DNA of 64,000 bases, taken from contig JAMXDE010000025.1 of the NCBI GenBank assembly GCA_026770025.1, positions 372,001-436,000 of the forward strand, read 5' to 3'. Positions 8,955 to 43,872 of this stretch are shown here, in pieces. A model generated the notes under the pieces. The model searched no databases and was not told the DNA's origin. It saw nothing but the letters and a program-made list of their open reading frames with translations. Numbering within the stretch: position 1 is the stretch's first letter; every line of letters starts with the position of its first letter. The DNA is from Craspedostauros australis. Taxonomy: Eukaryota; Bacillariophyta; Bacillariophyceae; Mastogloiales; Achnanthaceae. Position numbers and translations under genes: made by a program.

Positions 8955-10538
8955 TTAAAAATACCGCTGCGGCTGATGCATGCGCTCGACGATGACGATG
9001 GTCCCGCGATTGCCTCGCGTGATGCGCATGGTGTCATCCATGTAGAGGACGTCTAGCCATCCGACGGGTGAACGTTTCATATCGAAATGGAATGAATTCT
9101 CAATGCGCAGGGCGTCGACGGCATTCTTGGCCATCCATTTGTTCTTGTATTCCAAGGTGGGACGCGTGAGGCCCAGAACGGTCTGCAGGATGGTGTCCCA
9201 CAGCGATAGTTTGGTTGCGGAAGAGGAGGAGGACGAGGTGTTGAGGAAGGATCGCCTCCATTCCTGCAGCTTGGCGGCATTGCGGACGGTGCTGCGGGCC
9301 GGTACCAAGGTGCCGCCCGTGAATTGGACGCGCAGGCGTTTGCGCTTGGTGGCGGCATCGTCTTCGTAGTGGCAGACAGCGTGGTTGCAGATGAGGGCCT
9401 GCAGCGGGATCCCGTTTGGCGTGGAGATGAGCATGTCGCAGAATATGTTGTAGGTGAACTGCTTCGTGTTGGCGGACGCGAGCTGCGGCGTGCGCAGGGG
9501 GAAGACCTGGTTGCGGATGCCCACGAGCGTGCAGACGAGGTCGCTGGGCTGGAATATGTTGAAGGAGATCCTGCCCAGGGTGTACTTGGTGAGCTGGCTG
9601 CCGAAGTCGCTCTGGAAGCTGGCAGCTCCATTGGCGTTTGCGCTGTTGCCGGCATCGTTTTGGTCGTCGATGCTGTTGCCGTTCCCGTTGAACATTGTGG
9701 AGGAGGCCGCCGCGAGTTCCGCGGGCGAGTCCTCGTTGTCGTAGATGCGTCCCGGGAAGGTGGGCGCTGTGAGGGTGCGGAAGTTTCCGCATAACTGGCT
9801 GAGCATGGTGTTCTCCACGCTCTGCGCAGTGAGGTTGTTGGCCTCCATGTTGTTGATGTAGAGGTCGTGCAGCTTGTCGATGACCTTGGCCACCTCCGGG
9901 TGGTCCGGGTCTCCTTCGTACTTGCGCAGCACGATGCGCAGCTCGCGTTTGGTCTGCGCGACGTGGCTCTGCGCGGATCTGTTGGTGGCGAGGATCCTGG
10001 CGCTGCGTTTGTTGTCGTCGTCGTTGTTGTTGCCTCCGTTGGGCGTGGTGACGCCAGGCCCGAAGAGGGACCTGGGATTGCGCAGCCGCGGCTCCTGAGC
10101 TCTGGTGTCTGATGTTGTGGAGGCAGGCATGGCGGAGGAAGAGGCGGCCGGGTTGAAGGTCCTGAACATCTCGTTGAGCGGTCCTCTGGGTGTGAATGGT
10201 GTTCTGCCGTTGCCATTGCTGTTGCCATTCGCATTGATGCCTGCATCCACATTGATGTCATTGATGTCCCTGTCATTCATGTCCACATCCATGCCATTCA
10301 TGTCATTGATGTCTGTGGTGCGACGAATGCGATTGGCACCTCCAAAAGGCTGGAAAAAGTTGGGTCTGGAGGTGGAGAGACGTCCGACCGCATTCAGCTG
10401 AACTCCATTGCGCTGTCCTTGTCGTTGCGGTTGCTGGTAAGACTGATTGTGAGACGCGTAGTGATGCTGAGGAAGGCTGGGAGAGCCGGTCGTCAGCAGG
10501 CTCGACTGCGTGTACGCATATGCCAACAGGAGCTGCAT
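8955..10538 (-). CDS. PAP/fibrillin-domain protein with long disordered N-terminus
   Basis: A single exon of 527 residues with ATG at 10538. Residues 1-200 are rich in Gln, Asn, Ser and Asp, with a repetitive MDVDMNDRDINDIN-like stretch, and are probably disordered. From about residue 205 the protein becomes globular. The C-terminus carries the plastid-lipid-associated protein (fibrillin) signature: residues 493-513 begin GWLD-x-x-Y-x-DD and end RI-x-RGN-x-GT. An upstream FPGRIYD and a hydrophobic beta-rich core also fit the lipocalin-like PAP fold. Fibrillins bind lipids in plastoglobules and thylakoids. The N-terminus begins MQLLLAYAY but has no obvious ASAFAP cleavage motif, so plastid targeting is not shown. 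The gene is divergent from the one starting at 12056. Confidence 0.75.
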   Translation of the reverse strand: MQLLLAYAYTQSSLLTTGSPSLPQHHYASHNQSYQQPQRQGQRNGVQLNAVGRLSTSRPNFFQPFGGANRIRRTTDINDMNGMDVDMNDRDINDINVDAGINANGNSNGNGRTPFTPRGPLNEMFRTFNPAASSSAMPASTTSDTRAQEPRLRNPRSLFGPGVTTPNGGNNNDDDNKRSARILATNRSAQSHVAQTKRELRIVLRKYEGDPDHPEVAKVIDKLHDLYINNMEANNLTAQSVENTMLSQLCGNFRTLTAPTFPGRIYDNEDSPAELAAASSTMFNGNGNSIDDQNDAGNSANANGAASFQSDFGSQLTKYTLGRISFNIFQPSDLVCTLVGIRNQVFPLRTPQLASANTKQFTYNIFCDMLISTPNGIPLQALICNHAVCHYEDDAATKRKRLRVQFTGGTLVPARSTVRNAAKLQEWRRSFLNTSSSSSSATKLSLWDTILQTVLGLTRPTLEYKNKWMAKNAVDALRIENSFHFDMKRSPVGWLDVLYMDDTMRITRGNRGTIVIVERMHQPQRYF

Positions 10539-12055
10539 GATTGGATTCGATTCGACTCAATTCAACTTGATTCAACTCAACTCAATTCGATGCGATGTAA
10601 CGTGATGGATTTGCGTCCCTGAATATGAATGTGGCTGTGGATGCTCTGTGGATGCTCTACCAAGTCTCCCGTGCTCAACAGGCAACGCTTCTCTCTGCTG
10701 CTGTTGCTGCTGCTATTGCCTCAACGAGTATGGCCTTTGTCTTGGTCTTGGTGCGAGTGTTGCGAGTGTTGCGAGTTGTGCTTCTCTGCTTTGTGTCTTG
10801 CGCTCGCAGTTGAAGAAGATGAAGCAGTTGACACACCTGATGTGCTTGATACGCTTGATACGCTTGCTGCAGCCCGAATGCCTTTGTCGCCTCTGATTGC
10901 TCTACCCTGTTGGCATGTATAGTATTATGTCTGCTGTCTGCTGTCTTGGTCCAAGCGTTGCCCTAACGACCTTCGACTACTCGCTCTATCTGCATGCAAT
11001 GGACTTGTGCTTGGTGCTCTGTCATGCGACGTTTCCCATCAAACATGTGATGTCACTCTTCTCTCTCTGTCGTCATTGTCTATTCCGCAAATCCTTTGAT
11101 CCTCCTGAGCCTCTCTCCTCATTTGCATTGCTTGCTCTCTTGATTGCTCTCTTGATTGCCTCCCTTGCTTGACGCTCTTCGTATCATTCAACACACGCAC
11201 CATCCACACCATCGATACCATCCAACAGAGCCAGCGAAGCCAACAACACCAACCACCACGACAACGAGATCCCCAACCACACTCGCACTCCGGAACAACA
11301 ACCAACCACCCAAAATCACCTTCTTTGCGTTCGTTCGTTTCCCGCCACGCATGCAACACGTCGCATGTCAAGTGTTGTCGCTGACGTGGCGCAATCAATT
11401 AACGAACGACAGACACTGCGACATTCACTTCCAATGATTGCATGTCGCAAGAATTCATCATTGTCAAGGGACAGGTGTTCCGTGTCGCAATCTACAATAT
11501 TGGAATGTAGTCACTCGTAGAGAGTGGAGAATAGACAATAGAGTTGATGAGCAATAGAATACACTTACATGTTGCTCGAGAGAGTGGTAGTATTGGGATG
11601 GATGTGTATTCATGGATTGGTTGTGGTGGCGGAGGAGAAGAATCTGCTCTGACGTGCTCCAATCGCACTTGGACAGGCAGTTCAGCTGAACGCTTTGCTG
11701 ATGGAGCAAACGCGCTCACGGCAATGCATTCAAACAATGCATCACAAGCAGACAGCTTAGCTTGAGTCGAATTGCATGGGCTATCTCAGATGCTGCTAGA
11801 GCAGTTTGCAACAGAGTGCGAGTAGGTCATAGTAAGATCACTGCACTTGGCAACCATGGCCTTGGTTCACCATCGCCAACCAATCAACCGACTCATTTGA
11901 ATCATAGTGCGCAGAACGTGCGACCGTTAATTGCGGTTTGGCGCCAAAACAAATATCCAAAATCACGACACACAACAACACAATCAATCCATCTCGCTTT
12001 CGCACATCACACCCATCGGCATCATTTTCACATCACAACCACCGCCATCACCATC
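10539..12055. other. Divergent intergenic region
   Basis: This lies between two diverging genes and should contain both promoters. The side near 10539-10600 has a TTGAAT/TTGAGT quasi-repeat on the minus (sense) strand. The side near 11930-12055 is a CA-rich leader (ACAACA, CATCAC repeats) before ATG 12056. The frame of the right-hand gene extends upstream to about 11762, but those codons look like leader sequence. No further gene is supported. Confidence 0.55.
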
Positions 12056-12721
12056 ATGTCCAACCACGACTACGACACCAACAAGTTCGATCACGTATTT
12101 TCGGGATGGTCTATCTGGATTGAACCCGAACTCACCGCGCAGCTGACGGGCGAGATGGACCATCTGCGACAGGAGGTCTGTGGCAACGACCCCAGCGTCC
12201 ATCCCTTCGTGCCGCACGTCACCTTGATGTACAACTTTCCGCCGCAGCCGTGTGCGGAGACGGCAAAAATCATGCTGCAGCAGTGCTGGGATGAATTCCG
12301 CGCTTCATACGATGCGGATCAGTGGAATGCCAAACGGGCAAGAGTCATTGCGGGGCAAGCATGCAGCACGGAACAACAACCACAAATGCCCCTCACCGCC
12401 TACGCATGGCATCATCTCCACTACCCCAAATCCGCAGATAATGGCAAGGGATTCGGCTGCGACATCGTCCTGCTCGTCGTCGAACCCTACGAATGGCTCT
12501 TCTCATTGCGGCGCATCGTGCAGGACAAATTCGGCACGGACGAACGAAACGACAACTTCATCCCGCACATGTCCTTGGTCTATGCGCCCGAGGCTCTGGG
12601 GCCGCGGCTATCCATGGACGATCGCCCGATTCCGGCACTGTCGGCCAAGTATCTATCCATCTGGAGCACGCAAGGGAGGCTGCCAGAATGGAGTTGTGTT
12701 TGTCGAGTTGATTTGACTTGA
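12056..12721 (+). CDS. 2H phosphoesterase, cyclic phosphodiesterase-like
   Basis: 221 residues from ATG 12056. I chose this start because it follows the CA-rich leader and opens the conserved part (FSGWSIWIEP). Two H-x-T/S motifs are clear: HVT at residues 54-56 within FVPHVTLMYN, and HMS at residues 171-173 within FIPHMSLVYA. These are the paired catalytic motifs of the 2H superfamily. The length and motif spacing of about 115 residues match the plant/yeast CPDase class, which opens ADP-ribose 1'',2''-cyclic phosphate, a by-product of tRNA splicing. Other 2H activities (RNA 2',3'-cyclic phosphates) are possible. It probably acts in the cytosol or nucleus, as no targeting signal is seen. Confidence 0.8.
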   Translation: MSNHDYDTNKFDHVFSGWSIWIEPELTAQLTGEMDHLRQEVCGNDPSVHPFVPHVTLMYNFPPQPCAETAKIMLQQCWDEFRASYDADQWNAKRARVIAGQACSTEQQPQMPLTAYAWHHLHYPKSADNGKGFGCDIVLLVVEPYEWLFSLRRIVQDKFGTDERNDNFIPHMSLVYAPEALGPRLSMDDRPIPALSAKYLSIWSTQGRLPEWSCVCRVDLT

Positions 12722-15483: not shown

Positions 15484-17205
15484 ATGCAATCTTCCACGAT
15501 GACGATGTCGACGAACATCTCCATGAGGCGGATGCCGATGGCAACAATGACAATGATCCTCTCTGTTGCCACCATGGCAATGATGACAATGATGGCAATG
15601 CTGATGATCAGGCCGTGCGATGCCCTCATCGACAAGTTCGACGCCACTCGACGGCCCTTCGCGACAGTGTACTGGGACCCTGCAGTTGGGAGAGTGCGGG
15701 AGGATTGGAAGGTGGAGGAGATCCCCCAGTTCGTCATCATTTCCACGGATCAAGCCCTCACCTCCCAGGCGTCCGGAAACCTTGTCAACACCACCAAGGT
15801 GCGCCAGGAGCATGTCAATGGCTGCCATCCAGACCTCCGGCAGCCACCGCTTGCGGGAGAATCCTCCGACGGGGACGGCATCGCCATCTCCAACATTGGC
15901 ACGCTCGATCCCAGCGACCCCACCTCCCTCAAGGACAAGAGCGCCATCCCCATCACCTTCTTCCTCTCCGTCTTCGCAGGCAACAGCGCAAATCCCTCTC
16001 TCAAATGTGATGTCGTGCGGTCCTTCTACCTTGGTGGCAACGAGATCGCCACAAACACGATCCGCGGCTCTATCAGACCTCGAAACCCGCAGATCAAGGA
16101 GGCCATCGAATATCTCGTCGACGTTTGCAAGATCCCATTGGAGGCCATCCAGGGCTTCCGCGCGCCCAGCCCTTCGACCTCGCCCATTCCCCTAATGTCG
16201 AGCGACATCATGGACGCCGTCAAGATTGAAGCATCCATCCGCTACGATTCCTCCATCGAAGAGATCGGTACAAATGAGAGGAAGAACAAGGATCCCTACT
16301 GGCCCTTCACATTGGATAACGGCGTGCCCCCGGAGTTCGAAAATTATGAGGGCGAAAGAACCCGCAGGTACCGCGGATTGTGGGAGGTGCCGGTGTACAC
16401 TGTTTCCCATCCCGTCGTACCAACACCACAGCTTCCCCCTTTTCGACCGGACGTGGTCGCTACTCGCAACTTCCTCGATAACGCCCTGGAAGATCGTTTG
16501 GAGGGCAACAGGGCACCCCTCGGCGTCTACCTCGATGCTGGATACATGCAAACCAACTCCAATCTCATCATCGAGTGGATCGAATCCACCGTCCGGCAAT
16601 ACCCCAATCTTGTCTACTTCGTCACCTACCAGCAGCTCCTCCAGTACATGGAGGCGCCCGTTAAGCTCAGGGACTACCGTCTGCCGCAGATGTGTCGCAA
16701 CGATGACATGGACGACGTCGCGACGCCCGAAGACAGGTATCCCATCTTCCCGGGATGCATCCCGCCCTTCCCGTCTGGATGCCTCGCTGGGGTGTGGAAC
16801 CATGAGACCTGCCGCTGCAATTGCAACGACGAATTGTGCCGAACCGTGGAAGGACCCGATTTCGGTCTCTGCAACACGCGCTGCGACATGCTGCCAGGTG
16901 GCGGCGAGAAAGGGCCCGATGGTGACGAGTACGTGGATCCAGATGAAGAAGATAACAGCATGGTCATCGATGGTGGGTGGAGCGCTTGGACGTCCTGGAG
17001 TCTCTGCTTCAAGGGAGAGCAGACGAGATTCCGCAATTGCAACAGCCCCGAGCCCCGAGGCGGCGGCAAATTCTGCGGAGGCATCGGCCAAGAGAAAAGA
17101 GAGTGCGAAGCCACGGATGGATCCGATGCTCACATAGGAGCCATGTTCTCGCCTTGGTGCATCCTCTCGATGATTTGGTCCGTATCCATGTTCCTATTGG
17201 CATAA
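15484..17205 (+). CDS. Extracellular NodB/chitin-deacetylase-like pseudoenzyme with thrombospondin repeat
   Basis: A single exon of 573 residues. The N-terminus is a Met-rich hydrophobic signal (about residues 20-45, ending CDA). Residues about 80-400 follow the layout of chitin deacetylase-like NodB proteins: FVIISTDQAL (87-90 at the TFDD position), a GGNEIATNTIRGS segment (186-196, the H-x3-H position), GFRAP (224-228), a YDSS segment, RGLWEVPVY and a C-terminal YFVTYQQLL. The metal ligands are replaced: Asp by Gln90, and the two His by Asn191 and Gly195. Catalysis is therefore doubtful. Cys-rich residues 404-467 precede a thrombospondin type-1 repeat (497-541, WSAWTSWSLC and a CGG ending). 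The last 17 residues are hydrophobic, fitting a GPI or tail anchor. It is probably a cell-surface carbohydrate-binding protein. Confidence 0.8.
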   Translation: MQSSTMTMSTNISMRRMPMATMTMILSVATMAMMTMMAMLMIRPCDALIDKFDATRRPFATVYWDPAVGRVREDWKVEEIPQFVIISTDQALTSQASGNLVNTTKVRQEHVNGCHPDLRQPPLAGESSDGDGIAISNIGTLDPSDPTSLKDKSAIPITFFLSVFAGNSANPSLKCDVVRSFYLGGNEIATNTIRGSIRPRNPQIKEAIEYLVDVCKIPLEAIQGFRAPSPSTSPIPLMSSDIMDAVKIEASIRYDSSIEEIGTNERKNKDPYWPFTLDNGVPPEFENYEGERTRRYRGLWEVPVYTVSHPVVPTPQLPPFRPDVVATRNFLDNALEDRLEGNRAPLGVYLDAGYMQTNSNLIIEWIESTVRQYPNLVYFVTYQQLLQYMEAPVKLRDYRLPQMCRNDDMDDVATPEDRYPIFPGCIPPFPSGCLAGVWNHETCRCNCNDELCRTVEGPDFGLCNTRCDMLPGGGEKGPDGDEYVDPDEEDNSMVIDGGWSAWTSWSLCFKGEQTRFRNCNSPEPRGGGKFCGGIGQEKRECEATDGSDAHIGAMFSPWCILSMIWSVSMFLLA

Positions 17206-17523: not shown

Positions 17524-19698
17524 CTACGCATTTGACCGCTTGCGCATCTGACGACACGGGTCAAGCCGGAACAATCGATACACCAGATCCAACGGAGTCG
17601 AGAATCGGGATGCCGCAATCATCAACGGCGTCATGCCATCCTTGTCCCGAATGCCCAAGACGCCATTTCCACAGTGCGCCAACATTGGCTCGACGACATC
17701 TGCCACCTTCCCGTCGACACTTCCCGACAGAAAGAGAAGATGCAACGGCGTGCGTCGGCGTCTTCCTCCCTGCGCCTCCAAGGTCGACGGATCCAGATTC
17801 AGCAAGTAGACCATCGACTCGATGGACCATGGCATGGACTCCACGATGATGTGCAATGCAAACATGCCCCGTCGAAAGTCAAAACGTGTTGACAGCGGGC
17901 GTTGAGCTTCAAACATCCACGACAGTTTGTGCACGCGGGCCAGAAACAGCAAGGTCTCTTCCACGTTTTGCAGAGAAATTCGGTGAAGGATACATTGATG
18001 GATGCTATCGCGGACCTCCTGATCACCCTCCATGAAACAGCGATGCCAAGCGTTGATACCTTTGGCATTCTGATGACAGAGATAGGTCCCGTTCCCAAAC
18101 AAAGATTCCACCAGCACTCTGGAGTGTTGGCCCAGCTTCATGTATCGCATGGGTATCATGGCGATAGGGAGGTTACCGTAGGCGTCGAAGCAATTTACCA
18201 GATCCTGATGTTGCTGCGCGGCATGGATGGCACCATAAATCTCGGTGCAGTTGCGCAGCTTGTAGTGAAGCTTGTGGTCAGGATTGCATTTGAACGCGGG
18301 GGTGTATATGCGCGAGTTGATGGTGTTGTGAGTGTAGCCCATGTAGCTGGGACCGTAGATGTCATCGTCGCTATCTCCATCAGAATCATCCGCAGGGTTG
18401 GGGCTGGGGTGGCGAGGTTTGCGCTGGCCATCATGCTCGTGCTTCTTCTCGTCCTCTATTGCAACCTTGAGACCGTCATCATGGTTCTCATCCCAATCGT
18501 CGATCGCAAGCGGTGTCGTGGGACTCTCGGCCGGCTCATCCTTCTTCTCTTTCTCCGTGGTGACATCCGTCTGGCTGTTCAACGACACGTCTGAGTATTG
18601 GTACTCGCTTCCATCGTCATCGTCATCGTCCAGCATGTCGTAGATATTCTTGGTGCGATTTGAACGCAGGTTGGCCTTGGATTGGCGGTCTTCGAAATGG
18701 TTCGGAGTCTGGAAGGACTCGGCATAATTGCCGCTCTTCTTCATCTTCTTGGGCTGGATCCAACCGTGGGACCTCGGCGGCGGATCTATCTTTGGATCCC
18801 AAAGATCACCGCCGATGGTGATGCGATCGAACTGATCGGCCAGTTCCACGAACTCTTCGTTCTTGTTGGAGGCGTCGCTGTCGTAGTACTCATCCGGAAG
18901 GGCCCGGGTGTTACGACCGCGTGAGGATGTCCTTCCGTACGGATCATGATTGTCCCAGAAGGAATCGCGAGTAATACCTGGTGGTCTGGAGATTCTCTCT
19001 GAAACTACGCGCTTGAAATTATCTTCAAAGGCAGCCGCAAGGGCGTATGGTCGGTAGTGTGTGTGGAAATTTGTTTCGCCGTGCTCGAAGATACAGCAGA
19101 AGCACAGCGTTGTGCGAGTATGACAACAAAAAGATCGTGGTGAGCGGAACCAGAACTCCATCTCTGCGCCGCCGGATGTGTGCAAGACACACAGCAAACA
19201 AACAAACACAACGCTGTTCGTACCTTGCCAACGTTGTTCGTACCCAAACTGATACTTCTTCTTTTCCACTTTGTACCCAACCTTGGGTGCAACTGGCACT
19301 TGCGTGCTGCTGGTGTAGGTGGTGTTGCCCCATTGGGGCCAGAAGCTATAGTTATGCGTGTACCTTGTCTCGTAGTTCGCCTCCGGTTTGCGTTCTCCAT
19401 ACGGGACGAAATCGTAGTAGGAGTAGGTGTGCTGCCGCTGTGGGTAGCGCGCGTGGTGGTTGTGGTAACGCATCATGATGGACGTCAGGATCTGGAAGAT
19501 GGTACTCTTGAACTGCAGATGGAGCTTGTTGCGCTGAATGCCAAGGGCAGCACAGATGGTACTACGGAAGCTTGACCTGGTCCTGTAGAGAAAGCAGGCC
19601 GAGAAAAGGATTGTGATTGCGGCGCGAATCGTGTGGCGGTTGGTGGCGAGGATAGTGGTGATACCGAGCAGTTGACTACGATGAGCGATTGATATCAT
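17524..19698 (-). CDS. Ankyrin-like protein with acidic, disordered middle
   Basis: Two exons on the minus strand, 19698-19224 and 19022-17524, with a 201-base GT-AG intron (donor GTACGA), give 657 residues. The intron keeps the frame and has no stop. The N-terminus is uncertain: the first 70 residues include a hydrophobic stretch (AAITILFSACFLY) and may be leader, with an alternative start at the Met pair at 19476/19473. Residues about 90-160 are Tyr-rich (YSYYDF, YETRYTHNYSFWPQW). The middle is acidic with Ser/Asp runs. The C-terminal 250 residues show degenerate ankyrin-type helices (DAYGNLPIAMIPMRY, RRTPLHLLFLSGS, DKDGMTPLMIAASRF). The style is that of stramenopile ankyrin proteins. Function unknown. 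It is convergent with the gene at 15484. Confidence 0.7.
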   Translation of the reverse strand: MISIAHRSQLLGITTILATNRHTIRAAITILFSACFLYRTRSSFRSTICAALGIQRNKLHLQFKSTIFQILTSIMMRYHNHHARYPQRQHTYSYYDFVPYGERKPEANYETRYTHNYSFWPQWGNTTYTSSTQVPVAPKVGYKVEKKKYQFGYEQRWQGTNSVVFVCLLCVLHTSGGAEMEFWFRSPRSFCCHTRTTLCFCCIFEHGETNFHTHYRPYALAAAFEDNFKRVVSERISRPPGITRDSFWDNHDPYGRTSSRGRNTRALPDEYYDSDASNKNEEFVELADQFDRITIGGDLWDPKIDPPPRSHGWIQPKKMKKSGNYAESFQTPNHFEDRQSKANLRSNRTKNIYDMLDDDDDDGSEYQYSDVSLNSQTDVTTEKEKKDEPAESPTTPLAIDDWDENHDDGLKVAIEDEKKHEHDGQRKPRHPSPNPADDSDGDSDDDIYGPSYMGYTHNTINSRIYTPAFKCNPDHKLHYKLRNCTEIYGAIHAAQQHQDLVNCFDAYGNLPIAMIPMRYMKLGQHSRVLVESLFGNGTYLCHQNAKGINAWHRCFMEGDQEVRDSIHQCILHRISLQNVEETLLFLARVHKLSWMFEAQRPLSTRFDFRRGMFALHIIVESMPWSIESMVYLLNLDPSTLEAQGGRRRRTPLHLLFLSGSVDGKVADVVEPMLAHCGNGVLGIRDKDGMTPLMIAASRFSTPLDLVYRLFRLDPCRQMRKRSNA

Positions 19699-23700: not shown

Positions 23701-26700
23701 GCGCTTCCAAGATGCTAAATCACCATCGACTTCCGACGACGATGAGGACTCGCAGCAGCAACAGAAGAAACCATCCGTACTCAAACTTTCAAAGCAGAAT
23801 GGTACGCACGGATACAAGTCTGCATGCATGTATGGTATCTGTTGTGTTGACTGCGCTGCTTGAGACTTGCAGAACATCGAGCGTCTTCATACGCCTGGTG
23901 CTCGCGCACGCTCGGGGAGCATTGGAACTCACGGATGATCATTTTATCTTCTTTATCGTTGCCATCTCGGCATGTGCTACTTCCACTGCTCCACTGCGAC
24001 ACAACGCACCAACTGCAACGCACCAACTACAACGCACCATGCCGCGCCATGCAATCTCGCACCGTCGTCCCTACAAATGCACACTCGTAGGCAAACGCAT
24101 CAGAAATCCACATCGGTTGTCTAACGCCGCCATAACACCAAAGATCAAGCACCCAGCAGACGTGAAGAAATCTCTCTCCTCCACCAAGAAGAAAGGCAAC
24201 AAGATACGGATGCCTTGCGGTACGTATTGTTACTGGCGATGCACCATGTCTTTGGCTGTTGCATGATGGTGTTTGATTCTTGCATGTTCGACTCGGGTTG
24301 TTCGACACTCAGGCTGATCGCTGCGTGGGGAGCTCATTCCAATTGCATCAAGCTTGACTGACGGATCCATCCTTGCGATGGAGACAATCAAACACCCTTC
24401 AAATTCTCATAACGTGCGTGTCTGCTCTGACGAACTCTGCTCTACTCTATGATGTAATGACATACAATACCAACAGTTGGGAATGGTTTCATGGCCACAT
24501 GTCGCGAATCGGCGGGTGGTCGACCCGTATCTCCTCCACCAGTGAATGCATCGAAGGCAGCCCAGCGCCAGCCAACCACTCCAGAACCTACACATCACAA
24601 CACCAGTAGCAAACCTGCACAGAAGCAAAACAACAACAACACGATCACCATCGATTCGAGCGATGATGAGACCGGTGATGCCAACCTTGACGAAACCCTT
24701 GCGCAGCTTCACAGAAACAAATCACAGATACCACTGAAACGGCTAGCTATCGGCGCGGACGTGCATATGACGGACTGCAAGGTGTTGCTGGATCGTGATG
24801 AAGGGATATTGAAAATCACGTTCGCGAAGAAAGTTGAGGAGACGGGGACGCAGAGAACCAGGGCACGAAGATGCAAGGCAAAGAAGATGGAATTCAAAAC
24901 AATAGTCCTGGACATTCCGTTGGTGGCCAAGACAAAGAAGCTTCAGTCGTACCAGGACATCTTGGTGGATCTAAAATTCAACGCGTACAGCGCGAGCAGC
25001 AGCGATGAATCCAACAAACCCCCTTCCGAGAGTGACTCGAACAGCATCAAAGACTCCGATCAAAGCGGAAAGGCAAGCGCTGAGGTTGATCCTATGAAGA
25101 CGGAGAAGAGCAAGAAGAGGAAGGGCGGGCGTTCGGAGACAAGCGACATGGTCAACGTGATCGTGATGAGATTCTCGATGGGTTACCTCATGGATGCATG
25201 CGAGGTGAATGGGTTGGATCAGAACGATGAACGTGCAACACATGACCAGATTGGTCTCGAATTCAAAAATGCCGAGGATCTGCACAAGCTCCGGCATGCG
25301 ATGGTGCAGATGGAGCAAGTGGGCGAGGCAATGGCAGGGGAAGAGTCTCAGATGATGGCGGGGGATATGCTTGATTATGCCCCCCTGTTCCTGAGGGATG
25401 ACATGTTCATTGACTCAACAGATGATCTGTCGCCAGAGAAGCGCAAAGGCCGAGGCACTTACTCGTCGATGAGGGATGATCACGTGCTGATGGAATATCC
25501 CTTTGCTTGTGACTCGGAGCTGCTGGAGGCAGTGACAGAGTCGTTTGACGATGCGAAGGCGCATCACACAAGTGTCGAATCAGATACCGAAGCAACCAAT
25601 CTCGCTGTATCAAGGGTCACTGGAGTCCGGGATTCGACGGAGAGCAAGAGCCGAGGCCACTACGTCACAATCCGCGTCATGGACTACGAGAGGCTAGATC
25701 CGGAAAAGTACCTCAATGACTCATTGATTGACTTTTGGATGCAATGGTAAGTGTGCAGGCGAATATGCTGCGGAAATACGAGGATGGCCCGAACCCTCGC
25801 GGGATGATGCTGTCTATTTGATTTCAGTTCGATTTATGGGTGTCGCCGTTGATGTCAACATTCATTCAGCAACTCGATCTTCAACAGCGGCAGCCTTCTT
25901 GACGCGTGACTTGCGCCTTCCAATCTTCGCGAGCCAACGATCTCACCGGTGGCTCATTGTTTGATCGTCTTCTGCTCTTTGTGAACGTATAATACCATGC
26001 TTACCGCATGTTCGTGCATCTTGACCGTGTCCGAATGGTTGTCGGCTTTGCAGGATCTCGAGGCACGAACCGAAGAACTCCACGCGGTTTCATTTCTTCA
26101 CGTCCCACTTCTTCACCAAGCTCATGAAGGATGGCTACCAAGCGGTGCAGTCTTGGACGGCGAAGCGGGGCATCAACATCTTCGAGAAGAAAATGATCTT
26201 CCTGCCTGTCAACCGTCGCTACCATTGGTCGTTGTGCGTGGTGATCAATCCAAGCCACATCCTTGGAAGAAGCAAGGGTACCGAACGGCCCGATGATCCG
26301 TACCCTTGCCTCATCTTTTTGGACTCATTGAAGATCCACAAAAAGGACATGGTTCACCGCCATGTGTTGAAGTGGCTGAACGCGGAATACAATCGCATGA
26401 ACAGCATCCCGGATGACACGGAGCCGATTTTCACGAAGGCCAACTTCCCGGTGCTGTGTCCGAAAGGTGAGTTGATTCTTGACACGTCTTGTTGTGGAGA
26501 GACCGACTTGACAGAGATGTTCGTTCGGAATGCCCAGAGGGCTTGGAGACAGTCGCACTCCATTCGGCGGTTGTCTCACGCGCAACGTTTTTTGTTTCCT
26601 CACGCCAACCATGCTCGTACGCTCGTCGCCTACACAGTTCCCATCCAGACCAACGGGTGGGATTGTGGCATCTTCGTCTGCAAGTACGCGGGCGCCATGT

Positions 26701-27449
26701 TCAAGCTGCGGGATAAGAATTTCAGCAGGTTGGCCGCAGGGATCGTCGACGAACCGCCCCAATCCAAAGCGCCAGCCAACAACGCCGCCCAGGATTCCCA
26801 TGTTCCCATCAGTTCCAAACCGCGCGAAGCTCGGCGCATAGCATCCCCGTTCCAAGAGTTGATAGTGAACAGCGAGCACTTTGACTTCAACATGGATCAC
26901 ATTCATGAGTTTCGGGACAAGTTCGCTGCGATGCTGGTGAAACTGTCGGACCTGTACGCCGGGATGAAGCAAGGGGAGAAGGCGAAGAAGAACACCACGG
27001 AAGATAAAGAACACGTCAGCACAGGCCCGCACGAAGAAGTTGCTGTTGCCAGCCGCAACATCACAACACCCATCAAGTACGCCGACGCCGATGACGACCC
27101 GATGGAGGGAGTGGAATTGACGGATGTTGACGATCGCAACAAGCCCGTGGTCCACGATCTCGTGCAGGCATCGCCGCCGGTGGACACAGGTCTCGTCGTG
27201 CAAACCGGAGCCAATCTGGGCGTTGTCGTGGCCGTGATCCCCGTTGCCACACCCATCGAGCGCCGCAGCAATCCGGGCATCGCCGCGATCAACCGCGCCG
27301 CCGCAATCAAGCCGATCGACATGACGGAAAGTCCGATGGAGCAACCCATTCCACGCAAGCGCGGGTTGGCGCAGAAGCAAGTCAATGATGCAAACGGTGG
27401 CGCAGTGCGAGGTGGCGTCTATGGGGATGTCGAAACTGCGGACGTGTGA
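20738..27449 (+). CDS. Ulp/SENP-family SUMO protease (peptidase family C48) with SUMO-interacting motifs
   Basis: Five exons: 20738-23801, 24091-24219, 24477-25746, 26054-26466 and 26638-27449, all GT-AG. They sum to 5688 bases, exactly 1896 codons, so 1895 residues. The first 1100 residues are disordered and rich in His, Asp, Ser and Lys. The protease domain runs from about 1450 to 1650: YLNDSLIDFWMQW (substrate-binding start, split by intron 3), RFHFFTSHFFTKL, then His1545 in RRYHWSL, Asp1578 in LIFLDSL, Gln1629 and Cys1635 in VPIQTNGWDCG. This is the complete C48 triad plus oxyanion Gln. Three candidate SUMO-interacting motifs occur before it: VDLT at 285-288, VIDL at 625-628 followed by DDD, and ITID at 1121-1124 followed by SSDDE. 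The likely role is nuclear SUMO removal or maturation. Intron 4 (171 bases) is frame-neutral and stop-free. ATG 20738 is the first in-frame ATG. Confidence 0.85.
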
Positions 27450-28994: not shown

Positions 28995-30509
28995 ATGAAC
29001 GCCATTTACGGAATGATCCAGAACCAGATGCAGCGGCAGAGGATGAGGCGACGCAGCAGCAGAACACGCAGCTCTGGAGCGGATGCGGACATCATCGAGC
29101 CATCCGTCGTCATCACCTCCGCGCGACGAGCGTCGTCGTCTTCCATGCTGCTTCCATCCGCTTTGCGCCCACCGTCCAGATCGCGACGTTCCCGCAGCGA
29201 CGGCAGCAGCCAATCGACGACGACAGCGCCCAAACCATTCCTCTTCGAAATGTGCAAACGCTGGGCATGGGAAGTCGTGCAGCATCGCTGTCAGACGCAT
29301 CCGCACGAAGCGCACCACTCGATCGTCGATCACAACGGCGACACGGCCCTGCATCTCGCCCTCATTGGCAATCCGCCCGTGCAGACCATCGAGGCCTTGC
29401 TGCAGGCCTGTCCCAACTTGGCACGCACGACCAATCACAAGCGCCAATATCCCCTGCGTGTCGCCGCCTCGTACCGCGCCTCGAGTGCCGTCCTGCGCTG
29501 CATCGTGCGACGCTATCCCGAGGCCTGCAACTTGCCCGATCATCGTGGATCGTATCCGCTGCATATCATGTGCGATTATGGTTGCACGGCCGATGCGGTG
29601 CACGCCATCTTGGAATGCAAGGAGGGCAGGCTGTCGGCCAACAAGGTCGACGCCATCTACAAGCGCACGCCGCTCAAGATATTGCATCAGCGTCAGAATC
29701 TTGCGGAGTTTCATGATATGCTCAAGTTGTTGCGGGAGGTGCGGGAACGGCAGCGGGATCTTGCGGCGGAGCTTGCTGGCATCAACGGCGTTGGCGCGGT
29801 CCACGACGACAATCGCAGCATGCGCGTTCTCAGGAAACAGGAGGAGCTGGACGAGCTGGCGCAGTGCGTCGCGGACTTGGCCGAGAAGGAGTACTGGAAG
29901 AAGGTCAAGGCGCTCATCAATGCCGCCATCGTCTATGGCAACACCTACTTTCATCATGTGTCCAGCGACGCGGTCGTCGATGAGACTCACGAGTTGCAGC
30001 AGGATCAACTCACACCACCACGCAACAACGCCGACAACTACACAACCGCCCACGCCTGCCTCTTCACCAAGCACTGTCCTTCCTCGCTCCTCGAATTCGC
30101 CCTCCTCATGTGCTACGACGACCTGCTGCAACCCGATCATCACGGCAATCTGCCCATCCATCTCGCCATCCAACTCACGGCATCGTCGGAGACCTTCACG
30201 CCCTTCTTCACGTCCAAGATCGCCAGCGACATGGTGCGCATCTGTCCCGACTGCGCTTTTCATGACGACCCGCTGCGGTACGCCCTGCAGCACGATCACA
30301 ACAAGTACCTGTCGTGGTGTCCCGTCCTCTTTCAACTGTGGGTCGCCAATCCTGTGGCGCTCGATGCCATCGACGATCGCTTGTGGCCGCATCTCTGGGC
30401 CAGGTTGGCCGTGCGCAAGCCGGATCGACAACAGTCACCTGACGTCTTGCGCAACGCCCTCTACACATCCATACGCGAGAATCCGCATCTCTTTCAGGCG
30501 GGTGCATAA
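28995..30509 (+). CDS. Ankyrin-repeat protein
   Basis: A single exon of 504 residues from ATG 28995. Residues 1-85 are basic and Ser/Arg-rich. Ankyrin repeats follow from about residue 95: DHNGDTALHLALIG, HKRQYPLRVAASY, DHRGSYPLHIMCDYG, then a diverged repeat and a charged helix (about 235-300, ELDELAQCVADLAEKEYWKKVKALI). A further repeat, DHHGNLPIHLAIQL, lies near 395. The HPHEAHHSIVDHNGDTALH style, with a pathogen-effector-like or scaffold layout, is common in diatom gene sets as I recall them. A protein-protein interaction role is inferred. The 3' end lies only 53 bases from that of the convergent gene at 30563. Confidence 0.8.
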   Translation: MNAIYGMIQNQMQRQRMRRRSSRTRSSGADADIIEPSVVITSARRASSSSMLLPSALRPPSRSRRSRSDGSSQSTTTAPKPFLFEMCKRWAWEVVQHRCQTHPHEAHHSIVDHNGDTALHLALIGNPPVQTIEALLQACPNLARTTNHKRQYPLRVAASYRASSAVLRCIVRRYPEACNLPDHRGSYPLHIMCDYGCTADAVHAILECKEGRLSANKVDAIYKRTPLKILHQRQNLAEFHDMLKLLREVRERQRDLAAELAGINGVGAVHDDNRSMRVLRKQEELDELAQCVADLAEKEYWKKVKALINAAIVYGNTYFHHVSSDAVVDETHELQQDQLTPPRNNADNYTTAHACLFTKHCPSSLLEFALLMCYDDLLQPDHHGNLPIHLAIQLTASSETFTPFFTSKIASDMVRICPDCAFHDDPLRYALQHDHNKYLSWCPVLFQLWVANPVALDAIDDRLWPHLWARLAVRKPDRQQSPDVLRNALYTSIRENPHLFQAGA

Positions 30510-30562: not shown

Positions 30563-33139
30563 CTAGTCTAACGTCATCAACTCTTCCAAACACATTTGCA
30601 GAAGCATGCGCTGCGCTGTCTCACCGCCATTCTCTTCCAAATTCCCCAAAAAGGATTCGCTCTGCACCACCTTCCCGAACTCCTCCAGGATCGTGCGCAG
30701 CGCTGCGCGTCGCAACATCATCAACGATGCATCCGCCGTCGCGATGCGCTGCGACACTTCCTGCGCCGTCGTCCAACATTCCAATGGCAATTCTATGGGA
30801 TTTGACGCCAGTTGCACAGCGCAGTGCTGGATCAATTCCAAATACAGGTATTCTTCGCCGATCCAGATCAATTCCAACAGATCCGCCGTCGCATCGAGCA
30901 TGCCGTGCTGCATGTATTGCAACATCCATCGCAGGTGGTGCGAGGCGATATCGAGCCGTTGCGTCGTGTCTTGGGAGAAGCGAATCAACGCCGCGAATTT
31001 CTCGCTGGCTTGTATCAGCATGGTCGTCTCGATGTCGTCGAAGACCATGCCGTCGTTGGCGATGAGTCGGATCGTTGGCGCGTTGGCCGCAGTTTTGCGG
31101 GGCGGTGTTGCCGGGCGGGTCTGTGGTTGCTGCGGCGGGCTCTTCCATTCCACGATCCGTTTGGACTCCATACACTGCTTCAAATGCTGCACCGAATACA
31201 ATTGCGCATCGTGGCGATACAAGACAATGGCGTAATCGAACAATGCCTCGTCCAGCATGCTGTGAATCAGCGCGTGCGTCATGGCGTCGTTCTGCTCTTT
31301 CGTTTCTTTCTGTTCCAACGATCGAAAGAACGATTCGGGCTGCTTCTGCAAGACGGGATCCTTGCGCCGCGTGGATTGGATCCATTGCAATCGTTGTTTG
31401 CCGCACTTGAGGATGGTGCGCAGGACATCGATTGGGACGCGCGCTTGGATGGCCGCAAGCACGGGATTGGTGTCGGCGTCGAACGCATTGGCGCCCGCGT
31501 GGATCAGCAAGGCGACGAGATTGGACTGCATGTCGTGATTGTGGCAGCTGGAACACAAGGCGCTCGTGAGATCGTAGCATTGGCCATCGCGAAACTCCAA
31601 CAACAGCTCCACCATTTCGACGTTGCCGACCTTGGCGGCCCATGACAACGGGCACGTCCGATTGGCGGTGGTTTGCGACCGGCCCGATGTGTATTTGTGA
31701 TTCCTCGGATGATTGCCGCGCCACAAAATCATGGCCAGGGCCGTGTCCGTCGCGTTGGCCGAAATGGCCGCGAGCAACGGCGTCTGCTGCTGGGCATCGG
31801 GAATCTGCAGCAGCTTGTCCAACAATGCTTGCGGGCAGTGCTTCAGAAAGACTTGCGGCAGCTCGACGTACCCGCTGGCGCAGGCCAGATGCAACGCCGT
31901 GCTGCCATCCGCGTTGGTTTGCGACAGGATCTTGTAGAGCAGTTGCTGTTGCGTTTTGGCCGCGCGCTCGCGCAGGATCGTCACGATCAAGTATTTGAGC
32001 AACTCGACTTTCCCAGCGACGTTGTCGTCGACGTGGCAACAGACATGAAAGAGGTTGGCGCCGTCGTCGTTGCGAATGGCAAACGTTGTGGCGCTGCGAC
32101 GCGATGATCGCTCAAGATGGGGCACGATGTACGCGAGGCAATCCGCATGTCCCAGCCGCGCCGTGAGGAACATGGCATCGACGATGTCCTCGAATGCGGG
32201 GTCGTGCTGTTTCAACGATTTGGCCAGCATCGCCACGTCGTTGAGTTGGATGGCGTCCGCCATGCCGATCGCGTCTGGTTGGGGCTTGGGGATGGCAGGA
32301 AGGGGCTCGCGTATGACAGGGATACTCGCTGTCTTTTCTTTTTGTTCCTTCGGCACATCGAACACGATCGGCGCATGGTAATGCTTTTGAACCGAATGAT
32401 GCAGATCTTTACGAAATTCGAATCGCCGCAACGACTCCCAGAATCGATCTCGCAATTTGTTCATCGGAATCTTCTTGCGCAGTTTGATTTCAACGGGAGG
32501 TGGTGGATTGCTATCCGCAACGGCGGGTGGTTGCTGCTGCGGTTTCGCGGCGGTCAACGCAGTGAGACCAAGCTGTTTCTGCAGTTGATGGAATGCATCT
32601 TCTTTGCGTTCCGCCTTCGTTGCCGTCCTCTTGACCATGTTGGCGTAATCGTTGCGTTGGACGACGGGTCGAGCGACGGCCAAGGCAGGAAACTGTTCCA
32701 TGGATGCCTCGTGCTCTTGCGTGGCCAAGCGTGTGGCCAATCGATAATCCTCCTGCATCTGTTTGGAAGCGGCATTCCGCTTTCTGTGGTTGTGCTGGCG
32801 CGGCTGATGTGACTTGGAATGGGAGTTGTTGCGTCTGCCGTTGTGTCTGCCGTTGCGTTGTCGAGCGTTGGCGTCTTGATCATGTGGAGAGGCTTTGGTG
32901 CCTTGATTCTGTGGCTTGGTCTTTCGTCTGCCATTCTGTTGCTTCTTTCCCTTATTCCTCTGCTGCTGCCTTTGATGCCTTTGATGCCGTTGATGCCTGC
33001 CATGCCCATCAGCCTTGCGCCTCGCAGGAGTTCTGTGAGAGGACCCATCGTCATTCACGGACGTCTCAGCAAGCTGCTGTTCATGATGCTGCGATTGTCC
33101 AGGAACGAAGGTGGTGGCATTCACATTCAACTTTGGCAT
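30563..33139 (-). CDS. PAM2-ankyrin-BTB protein, predicted poly(A)-binding-protein partner
   Basis: A single exon of 858 residues from ATG 33139. Residues 4-13 (LNVNATTFVP) match the PAM2 consensus L-N-x-x-A-x-x-F-x-P, which binds the MLLE domain of poly(A)-binding protein. Residues 30-135 are very basic and Gln/His/Arg-rich, plausible RNA contact. A helix with EQFPALAVA follows at about 150-165. Ankyrin repeats occupy about 300-560 (DGANLFHVCCHVDD, DGSTALHLACASGY, QTPLLAAISANA, CPLSWAAKVGNVEMVELLLEF, VALLIHAGANAFD). Residues 690-780 form a BTB/POZ fold, ending in LLELIWIGEEYLYLELIQHC. BTB proteins often recruit Cullin-3. Control of mRNA-bound partners is therefore inferred, not shown. Confidence 0.8.
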   Translation of the reverse strand: MPKLNVNATTFVPGQSQHHEQQLAETSVNDDGSSHRTPARRKADGHGRHQRHQRHQRQQQRNKGKKQQNGRRKTKPQNQGTKASPHDQDANARQRNGRHNGRRNNSHSKSHQPRQHNHRKRNAASKQMQEDYRLATRLATQEHEASMEQFPALAVARPVVQRNDYANMVKRTATKAERKEDAFHQLQKQLGLTALTAAKPQQQPPAVADSNPPPPVEIKLRKKIPMNKLRDRFWESLRRFEFRKDLHHSVQKHYHAPIVFDVPKEQKEKTASIPVIREPLPAIPKPQPDAIGMADAIQLNDVAMLAKSLKQHDPAFEDIVDAMFLTARLGHADCLAYIVPHLERSSRRSATTFAIRNDDGANLFHVCCHVDDNVAGKVELLKYLIVTILRERAAKTQQQLLYKILSQTNADGSTALHLACASGYVELPQVFLKHCPQALLDKLLQIPDAQQQTPLLAAISANATDTALAMILWRGNHPRNHKYTSGRSQTTANRTCPLSWAAKVGNVEMVELLLEFRDGQCYDLTSALCSSCHNHDMQSNLVALLIHAGANAFDADTNPVLAAIQARVPIDVLRTILKCGKQRLQWIQSTRRKDPVLQKQPESFFRSLEQKETKEQNDAMTHALIHSMLDEALFDYAIVLYRHDAQLYSVQHLKQCMESKRIVEWKSPPQQPQTRPATPPRKTAANAPTIRLIANDGMVFDDIETTMLIQASEKFAALIRFSQDTTQRLDIASHHLRWMLQYMQHGMLDATADLLELIWIGEEYLYLELIQHCAVQLASNPIELPLECWTTAQEVSQRIATADASLMMLRRAALRTILEEFGKVVQSESFLGNLEENGGETAQRMLLQMCLEELMTLD

Positions 33140-33558: not shown

Positions 33559-34729
33559 CTACACCTGCACAACCAGGACATCATCTTCGTCCTTTTTGAT
33601 CTCTGATTCTGTCGTTGCTTCGGACGACAACATTTGTTTCGTTTCGTCGTGATGCAGTTCTGCTTCCTGCTCAGAAGCGACTGGTTCTGCATCTTTGTGG
33701 AACGCTGCACGCGCCTTGCAGTACAATGCCACGAATATCCATGCGCCGACTACCATTGCCACCGACGGCACGAAGCTGTTGCCACAATTCTGGCACGGCA
33801 CATCGCCCGATGGACTCAAGTACCGCGTGTTGAGCACGGTGGAACTACGGTAGGAAAGACTGTGCGTCATGTCCTCCTCGATCTGTTGGTACATCTTGCT
33901 GTCGTCTTGGGCGAAGCAATCGGTCTGGAGGCTCAGATTCGTCTCCAAAATGGCACAATGTTTGACGCCGGAGTGGCTCGTTGCGCATGTATCTACGGCG
34001 TCCAGTTGTTGATGATGCAAAATTGGGAAGTGAGTGAACGATGATACAATATCAACAAATGCAACTTCGTTCATCCCTCCTTGTGGAAATCACACAAACG
34101 AACAAATCAACTCACCGATCAAGACGGTCTGCGCTGAAACGCGCTGCGATGTCTCGTCCATGCGATCGCAGGCGATTGCAGTGTGTTTGGGACAGGAACG
34201 CATTACGGCGGCCGTCGCTGACTTGCAGATCGCAACTTCCAACTCAGCTGCGGGAACTTGCGTGGTCGTGCTTTCCACGACATACTTCACTTTCAATTTG
34301 GAAACTGATGCGTGGCGCGGCATGCAGGATGGCGCAGGCGCCGTGCGGTCTTGTGCAATTTCCGGGAATTGCGACGGCAACGATGTGGACATCGACATGG
34401 ACAGATCCATCTCAATTTGCAATGGGTACATCTCACTGTCCATGGTTTCACGGAATCTGTGGTCGACAAGAACGCAAACGGTAGTGTGAGAAATGAAATG
34501 AACGACGATCGCACAACATATCATCACATACGTTACGCTGTAGCCGCCCAACTCACTCGTTCAGAACCCCAAGTTTGCGTGCCTGCGTATCCAGATTGGC
34601 AAAGGGGATCATGCGCAATCGCAAACGGCCAACACGATGGCCCTCGTGACGATCGTCATCCAGCAATGGCTCATCGTTGCTAGTGTCTCTCCCGAATTCG
34701 GCATGCGAGATTGCGGTAGAATCGGTCAT
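33559..34729 (-). CDS. Two-TM protein of unknown function, reading frame broken at a TGA
   Basis: From ATG 34729 the minus strand encodes a natural-looking cytosolic segment (MTDSTAISHAEF, then NDEPLLDDDRHEG and RMIPFANLDTQARKLGVLNE), ending at TGA 34555-34553. Coding continues in the +1 frame with a TM segment (SVTYVMICCAIVVHFI) and a Cys-containing lumenal or extracellular domain. A 123-base GT-AG intron (34115-33993) interrupts it. A second TM (VPSVAMVVGAWIFVALYC) and an acidic cytosolic tail follow, and the frame ends at 33559. Dropping one base at 34555 joins the two halves smoothly. A 19-base GT-AG excision would also restore the frame, but it would be far shorter than the other introns here (123-307 bases). 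An indel, a sequencing error or a +1 shift are the options. Family not recognised. Confidence 0.55.
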
Positions 34730-42540: not shown

Positions 42541-43872
42541 TCAAAGCAAATGTCCACCGACGGGCACAACGCTATCGTGCAAAATACCGGACGTCCCGCA
42601 CACCCGGATGGGCTTCGGCACCACCTCGGTGCCGTTGCGGAGGGTGCAGGCATCGCCATGCGACGGAGTGAAATCCATGCGGCAATCTGCTTCGGGATCC
42701 TGTTCGGGATTGACGCGCTTGAGACGGATGTACCCCTTCTCTCCCCATGTCGGACCCCAGCTGTTGCGCACCAGCCAGTAATCCGCACCCGTCTCTTCAT
42801 CGGTGCCGTACCCTTCCAGCACGACGGCGTGGTTGATGTCGCGCGTCTGTCTGGATTCGTCATCAAAGATGCCACCGTGGTAGAAGGACCAGCCCGACGC
42901 GGCGACGCTGACGGCGACGGGACCGACGTGCGCCACAGTGGCCATCAAGGAGTAGTAGTCGTTGCTTGGCAAATTGGCGAATCCAACGATGGAGGCGACG
43001 GCACTGTTGACGAACCTGTGGTCGGACGGCGCGGCACGAGCTCCTAACGCGCGACTTTGCTTATCATGTTCGGGCAAAATGGTGCACGCCACATCGGCGC
43101 CATGACCAGAGCTGTAGCCGAAGGACCATTCCTCCGCGACGCCGTGCAGCGCTGCGAAAGCGTAGGCCAACTCGACCGTGGATCCGGAGCAACCGCCCGT
43201 GCCGCCGCAGTGATTGGGATTGGGCGCGCATGACACGAACTCCTGCACGCTGAGGGTGAAGAGGATGCCGGTGGCGATGGCGATGTGCGATTCCAAAACG
43301 GCCGTGGCAGCGAATGCCCAGCACGAGCCGCAGCCACCTTGATTCTTGACGGGCCCCGTGACGCCCGGTTGCGTGCGCCAATCGACGGATTCTGGCAGTT
43401 CGGAAGTCGCCGTCTTGTGTCCGAGTCGGAATGGCATTCGAAAGGCCGCGGCGGTGAGATCGGCCTGTCCCGGCTTGGGCGTGCTATCGAACTGCGAGCT
43501 CTGGAACTTGTCGTGGCCCATCGGCAATTCCCATTCTTCCAAGTCCGCAAACGCATTGACGGCCAACGTGTAGGCGCGATCTGGTTGCGCATTGTGCTGC
43601 ACGATCGCGTCGATGTTGGCGGCGTAGATTGCGGCGCGCCGTGCGTGCTCTTCCGCTGTGGCGTACGACTTGCGATGGTCCTTCACGAATTCATCGAAGG
43701 AGTACGCTCTGAGAGCGTCTTCGTCGGTGGACCAGTCGATGGCGGCCTCCTGCAGATCATCCTTGATGTGGTTGGACTGGGCATCCCGGATGGTGCTGAT
43801 GGACGTGCTCAGCCAATTGAAGAAGGAGGCCGACAGCGCGAAGATTACCACTGACTTGCCAAACAGCATCAT
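42541..43872 (-). CDS. Membrane-anchored papain-family cysteine protease (C1A)
   Basis: A single exon of 443 residues from ATG 43872. An N-terminal hydrophobic segment (about 5-24) is a signal or anchor. Residues about 55-115 are an I29 inhibitor prodomain (FDEFVKDHRKSYATAEEHARR, with NAFADL). The mature enzyme starts near LPESVDWR (159-166). Catalytic residues are Gln178, Cys184 (GGCGSCWAF), His348 (DINHAVVLEGYG) and Asn370 (RNSWGPTWGEKGY). The active-site set is complete, so an active cathepsin-L/papain-like protease of the lysosome, vacuole or secretory route is inferred. A C-terminal extension of about 60 residues with extra Cys residues is unusual for the minimal fold. Confidence 0.88.
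   Translation of the reverse strand: MMLFGKSVVIFALSASFFNWLSTSISTIRDAQSNHIKDDLQEAAIDWSTDEDALRAYSFDEFVKDHRKSYATAEEHARRAAIYAANIDAIVQHNAQPDRAYTLAVNAFADLEEWELPMGHDKFQSSQFDSTPKPGQADLTAAAFRMPFRLGHKTATSELPESVDWRTQPGVTGPVKNQGGCGSCWAFAATAVLESHIAIATGILFTLSVQEFVSCAPNPNHCGGTGGCSGSTVELAYAFAALHGVAEEWSFGYSSGHGADVACTILPEHDKQSRALGARAAPSDHRFVNSAVASIVGFANLPSNDYYSLMATVAHVGPVAVSVAASGWSFYHGGIFDDESRQTRDINHAVVLEGYGTDEETGADYWLVRNSWGPTWGEKGYIRLKRVNPEQDPEADCRMDFTPSHGDACTLRNGTEVVPKPIRVCGTSGILHDSVVPVGGHLL

Follow-up and report, generated by a model that had tools for sequence, protein, structure and literature searches.

A putative PAM2 motif, ankyrin repeats and a diverged BTB-BACK region predicted in a single protein of the alga Craspedostauros australis

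Introduction

Might an alga bring a Cullin-3 ubiquitin ligase to its mRNA by way of a peptide that docks on poly(A)-binding protein (PABP)? The question is raised by a gene in a 64,000-nucleotide stretch of Craspedostauros australis DNA (hereafter the window), for which a first-pass annotation had proposed a PAM2 motif at the N-terminus, ankyrin repeats, and a BTB-like fold at the C-terminus that would recruit Cullin-3. Here we consider how far each part of this proposal holds, whether the same genome (74.8 Mb in 90 contigs was searched) supplies the partners that it calls for, and which other explanations compete with it. Several of the papers cited below were available as excerpts, and statements taken from them extend to those excerpts.

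The gene and its reading frame

The gene is an 858-codon open frame on the minus strand (30563..33139) that requires no intron. Its ATG is the first within an 885-codon stop-to-stop frame, so that 27 codons stay open beyond residue 1. To score coding signal, a codon table was derived from 21 other loci, each represented by its longest ATG frame, and the gene's frame was the best of six in all eight (partly overlapping) stretches examined. From residue 129 onward the signal is clear (0.20-0.36 bits per codon), over residues 1-50 it is weak (0.02 bits per codon), and across residues 35-128 little separates the three forward frames (0.16, 0.12 and 0.14 bits per codon). The next Met after the start Met is residue 128. 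Genome searches for paralogues returned the self-match alone, both with the whole protein (E up to 0.001) and with the C-terminus by itself (E up to 10), and no relatives of the protein were found in viral contigs.

The central part of the protein has two recognisable portions. Residues 35-128 (32756..33037, minus strand) form a basic stretch of low complexity, with 28 Lys and Arg against 3 Asp and Glu in 94 residues, which may possibly contact RNA. The ankyrin repeat region spans approximately residues 320-560 (31460..32182, minus strand), with bounds set by eye around the stretches matched by Pfam (400-469 and 497-515), and it scores 55.7 bits with Ank_2 against a cut-off of 27.3 (E 7.6e-15). 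Neither a FYVE nor a RING domain was found in the protein by a Pfam scan up to E 1.

The surroundings are varied. Tail to tail with the gene, across a gap of 53 bases, lies a second ankyrin protein of 504 residues (28995-30509, plus strand), and a weak ankyrin match was seen at 17524-19698 (minus). Elsewhere in the window are a match to Ulp1-type C48 proteases at 26124-27449 (plus; E 5.7e-15), a papain-family protease with an I29 propeptide at 42541-43872 (minus), a PAP_fibrillin match at 8955-10538 (minus), a 2'-5' RNA ligase/CPDase-like frame at 11762-12721 (plus) and a weak thrombospondin-1 match at 15484-17205 (plus). Many genes of this genome read as long intronless frames, and it holds 61 light-harvesting-protein matches.

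A candidate PAM2 motif at the N-terminus

The candidate motif, LNVNATTFVP, occupies residues 4-13 (33101..33130, minus strand). All five key positions named in the first-pass annotation (L4, N5, A8, F11 and P13) bear the residues claimed for them, and the only departure from the published consensus, xxLNxxAxEFxP (PMC9249222), is at the Glu before the Phe, a position that the annotation did not name and where this protein has Thr. For the PAM2-N peptide of human eRF3 on MLLE, the excerpted account names Leu69, Asn70, Val71, Asn72, Ala73, Phe76, Val77, Pro78 and Asn79 (PMC2854688). Eight of these nine are identical in the algal protein at the same spacing (L, N, V, N, A, F, V and P), the sole mismatch being Gly14 at the counterpart of Asn79.

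The probability of meeting LN..A..F.P by chance is approximately 5e-7 to 6e-7 per position, which amounts to 5.5e-4 across the whole protein and to 6e-6 when ten starts are allowed. When all six frames of the window were scanned (127,996 codons), L[NS]..A..F.P was matched once, by the motif under study, and a looser PAM2 pattern found two additional matches. Judged in this way the match exceeds chance where this one protein is concerned, but a proteome of roughly ten million residues would be expected to hold a few chance matches. A GTG-started frame at 34034-34489 (plus) contains a relaxed PAM2-like string, ISTNATSFIP, at 34049, which is probably due to chance.

Profile methods were less generous. 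With the first 80 residues as query, Pfam PAM2 (PF07145) scored 12.4 bits (E 0.14), against a gathering cut-off of 20; the same family gave no match when the query was residues 1-300 (E up to 10) or the complete protein (E up to 1). The locus is absent from the three places returned by a genome-wide PAM2 profile search, and a PDB sequence search with the first 50 residues gave no match. The Pfam cut-off is nevertheless a strict and poor judge here, because the PAM2 of an ataxin-2-like frame in the same genome also misses it, at 16.4 bits in a plain scan. Among 20 other BTB frames of the genome (L033-L052), none has a PAM2-like string.

The strongest counter-evidence to the PAM2 reading comes from retrotransposons. 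Two closely alike LINE-type frames carry LSPNAPAFTP (L011; G000:C4:2756634-2756678) and LSPNAPAFIP (L012; G000:C47:292305-292349) near their N-termini, with an endonuclease domain downstream in L011, and these strings score 18.0 and 17.8 bits with Pfam PAM2, both higher than the gene under study. The retrotransposon region occurs at 40 places in the genome, 38 of them beyond these two, and in all 13 of the further copies that were read the motif is absent, the F.P part being kept in none. We have therefore dropped PAM2 as a real feature of the retrotransposon, and the loss of the motif from 13 of 13 copies implies that high-scoring PAM2-like strings arise in this genome without visible constraint.

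A candidate PABP partner in the same genome

A six-frame profile search that ignored introns found one MLLE domain in the genome, within a PABP (E 1.6e-31). It is identical to that of human PABPC1 at 52 of 78 residues and retains 14 of the 17 PAM2-contact residues named in the available part of PMC2854688, the changes being Q560N, F567Y and I588M. The ataxin-2-like frame mentioned above (L010) has the PAM2 string FNPSAKSFTP at its C-terminus (G000:C8:566933-566980), together with matches to the ataxin-2 SM (E 1.1e-11) and LsmAD (E 1.2e-24) domains. Since the MLLE of PABP keeps most of its contacts and an ataxin-2-like frame carries a PAM2, this organism probably makes use of the PAM2/MLLE system. 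Docking of the studied protein on PABP, as predicted from the motif, is plausible and indeed probable.

A diverged BTB-BACK region at the C-terminus

Pfam BTB and BACK gave no match at the C-terminus, and the locus is absent among the 104 BTB places that a Pfam BTB family search found in the genome. We turned to profiles made from the alga's own BTB sequences, drawn from 40 of these 104 places; from the 40, 18 representatives were picked by an identity limit and 22 were selected for a BTB-BACK profile by our own choice. The BACK reading was first made by eye, and the BTB-BACK profile dates from after the tests with BTB alone. With the 40-sequence BTB-only profile the C-terminus came fourth, below three of 2000 shuffles, and with the 18 representatives it came above 2000 shuffles and 273 tiles. 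With the 22-sequence BTB-BACK profile (hmmsearch) it reached 18.5 bits (E 1.3e-4), above all 2000 shuffles and all 273 tiles, the best of which scored 9.6 and 3.8 bits, respectively. An hhalign comparison with the same profile aligned 119 columns over residues 706-832 (probability 89, P 2.3e-6), and none of 300 shuffles did as well. When the full-length protein was the target, the scores were 5.4 bits (40-sequence BTB), 6.3 bits (18 representatives) and 15.4 bits (BTB-BACK), the first two lying within the range of the shuffles of the C-terminus and the third outside it. For the last 81 residues only, one of 2000 shuffles scored higher with the BTB-BACK profile.

Structure prediction was less informative. 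Two single-sequence AlphaFold runs, made with no alignment, gave the C-terminus a pLDDT of 47 and 57; a Foldseek search with the latter model had a best E of 1.4, and of its 98 matches the 50 listed included no BTB, and a PDB sequence search with the C-terminus yielded chance matches alone (best E 0.18). Because the genome's own BTB-BACK profile matches above shuffles with both hmmsearch and hhalign, we are fairly sure that the C-terminus is a diverged BTB-BACK region, a more specific assignment than the BTB-like fold that had been claimed. The BTB domain is placed at residues 688-776 (30812..31078, minus strand), where the hhalign match begins at 706 and residues 688-705 were added by eye, and the BACK-like segment at residues 777-834 (30638..30811, minus strand).

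The genome holds at least 104 BTB places, many of them on contig C31. Ankyrin repeats were found in 15 of the 20 BTB frames tested (L033-L052), which indicates that ankyrin-BTB-BACK proteins form a large family in this alga. In some ankyrin-BTB frames a coiled-coil-like stretch can be seen by eye between the domains, and six BTB places on contigs C8 and C19 share an identical score, frame length and inner TAA and are perhaps recent copies. Read against this background, the studied gene appears to be a diverged member of the ankyrin-BTB-BACK family that has no close paralogue and that bears a PAM2 motif and a basic tail in front.

A possible link to Cullin-3

The genome has five cullin matches in four places, the fourth of which contains an inner stop. 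One of these, L058, has Cullin-3 as its best PDB match (385 bits, against 326 for Cullin-4B), whereas two others (L059 and L060) best fit Cullin-4. KLHL3 and SPOP bind Cul3 via a phi-x-E motif, which in KLHL3 is M83-S84-E85, and the BACK region of KLHL3 belongs to the portion required for Cul3 binding (PMC3616122, from the excerpt). No phi-x-E was found between residues 714 and 731 of the algal protein, the matching stretch, KFAALIRFSQDTTQRLDI, having no Glu. The motif is present in five other BTB frames (L013-L017: MRE, FRE, MRE, FAE and FTE), and by a crude count some phi-x-E occurs in 23 of the 40 BTB domains read and is absent in 17, which means that its absence may signify little in this genome. 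Of the earlier claim of Cullin-3 recruitment, the Cul3-like cullin could be supplied and the phi-x-E could not; the missing motif lowers the claim and does not close it. A ligase role for the protein, as predicted from its sequence, is uncertain.

Proposed mechanism and rival explanations

What computation shows is an open frame, a PAM2 motif, ankyrin repeats, BTB-BACK homology, an MLLE with most of its pocket and a Cul3-like cullin. The reading that we favour, at a probability of roughly 0.4, is that the protein is a PAM2-docked ankyrin-BTB-BACK substrate adaptor placed on mRNA, where PABP or a neighbour would be ubiquitylated. From the parts at hand we infer that the N-terminal PAM2 peptide would sit in the MLLE pocket of cytoplasmic PABP, with the basic tail lying on RNA and aiding the docking, while the ankyrin repeats would hold a client within the mRNP. 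The BTB domain would dimerise and, together with the BACK segment, bring in the Cullin-3-like cullin; ubiquitylation of PABP or a neighbour would then alter translation or mRNA decay. The adaptor reading draws on the 8/9 match to eRF3 PAM2-N, the organism's own MLLE, the ankyrin repeats, the BTB-BACK profile, the commonness of ankyrin-BTB frames in this genome, the Cul3-like cullin and the precedents of SPOP and MKRN1. It is weakened by the lack of phi-x-E, the change of Asn79 to Gly, the misses with Pfam PAM2 and BTB, the retrotransposon strings, the weak 5' coding signal, the low pLDDT and the absence of BTB among the 50 fold matches listed, and also by the report, in the excerpt of the Upa1 paper, that the PAM2 motif of this protein is dispensable for function (PMC4466420). 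A narrower version of the adaptor reading, to be held more tentatively, is that the protein uses its PAM2 peptide to recruit a Cullin-3 ligase to PABP on poly(A), its BTB domain binding the cullin without phi-x-E, as an algal counterpart, built of other parts, to MKRN1 and Upa1.

The chief competitor, in our opinion unlikely, is a PABP-docked scaffold with no ligase role, in which PAM2 would engage MLLE, the ankyrin repeats would hold a protein of the mRNP and the only task of the diverged BTB-BACK would be to form dimers. Such a protein would act as a bridge, as Upa1 does for endosomes, and in that way control translation, storage or the transport of mRNA. A BTB that lacks phi-x-E and is too diverged for Pfam would suit this role, as would the basic tail, and in Upa1, also a PAM2 and ankyrin protein, the RING is dispensable under the conditions tested (PMC4466420, excerpt). 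Against a scaffold speaks the keeping of a BACK-like segment, which in KLHL3 is within the part needed for Cul3 binding (PMC3616122, excerpt), and the missing phi-x-E may count for less when the crude count finds 17 of the 40 BTB domains without it too.

Next in order, and unlikely also, the gene may encode an ordinary ankyrin-BTB-BACK family protein, in which the PAM2-like string is there by chance or is untranslated, with the start at residue 128. Against this stand the eight of nine eRF3 residues three codons past the first ATG, the probability of approximately 6e-6 that ten starts would yield the five key residues by chance, and a frame that is open through residue 1 and 27 codons beyond. 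The 12.4 bits with Pfam PAM2 favour it, but the ataxin-2-like PAM2 also falls below the cut-off (16.4 bits); to its credit remain the 18.0- and 17.8-bit strings of L011 and L012, missing in 13 of 13 other copies read, the weak coding signal of residues 1-50 and the 0 of 20 other BTB frames with a PAM2-like string. Very improbable, finally, is a Skp1- or Elongin-C-like C-terminus linked to a different cullin. A profile of five of the alga's own Skp1 sequences does align in the same register, with 6 of 300 shuffles as good, but BTB-BACK gives the better fit (none of 300 shuffles as good, 119 aligned columns), and with hmmsearch 10 of 2000 shuffles scored higher than the C-terminus with the Skp1 profile; we have rejected this identity as the weaker of the two.

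Comparison with known systems

The first-pass annotation knew of no described protein with this combination of domains. In literature queries that needed three of four terms, and that papers with two terms could escape, no title or abstract opening was found that pairs PAM2 with BTB. The words PAM2 and BTB both occur in a proteomics study (PMC2702278), and the main text of a paper on ataxin-2 chimeras (PMC12898128) has neither 'ankyrin' nor 'BTB'. PAM2-ankyrin-BTB-BACK probably joins known parts in a new way. The mechanism already has precedents: PAM2 with ankyrin repeats and RING (Upa1), PAM2 with RING (MKRN1), and a Cul3-BTB protein acting on PABPC1 (SPOP) are all in print.

Should the docking prove real, an adaptor of the cullin type would join, by PAM2 and in an alga, the RING and HECT ligases that are tied to the PABP/MLLE system, and the coupling of ubiquitin to poly(A)-bound PABP would have originated several times, from ligase parts of different kinds. 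The 20-residue peptide, the one MLLE and the one cullin are all found in the same genome, so the proposal is directly testable.

To our knowledge SPOP has no ankyrin repeats, and we know of no PAM2 in BPOZ-2/ABTB2. SPOP resembles the predicted protein in being a Cul3 adaptor with a BTB domain and in modifying PABPC1, although SPOP/Cul3 adds K63 chains to PABPC1 that is bound through a MATH domain and not by PAM2 (PMC13273242). BPOZ-2/ABTB2 shares the union of ankyrin repeats with BTB and is found with Cul3 (PMC3394778; PMC4768134), and UBR5 likewise ties the MLLE/PAM2 system to ubiquitin, except that UBR5 itself bears the MLLE where the algal protein bears the peptide (PMC9249222). MKRN1 is akin in tying docking on PABPC1 by PAM2 to ubiquitylation, its substrates being PABPC1 and RPS10, but it is a RING ligase and was the sole E3 added in vitro (PMC6805484), whereas no RING was found in the algal protein by the Pfam scan. 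In Upa1 of Ustilago maydis, PAM2 binds to the Pab1 MLLE and is combined with five ankyrin repeats, FYVE and RING (PMC4466420; PMC9249222). As these partial sources describe it, Upa1 has in common with the predicted protein PAM2, ankyrin repeats and a C-terminal module linked to ubiquitin; it differs in its FYVE domain, its two PAM2L motifs and its RING, in the place of which the algal protein would have a BTB-BACK.
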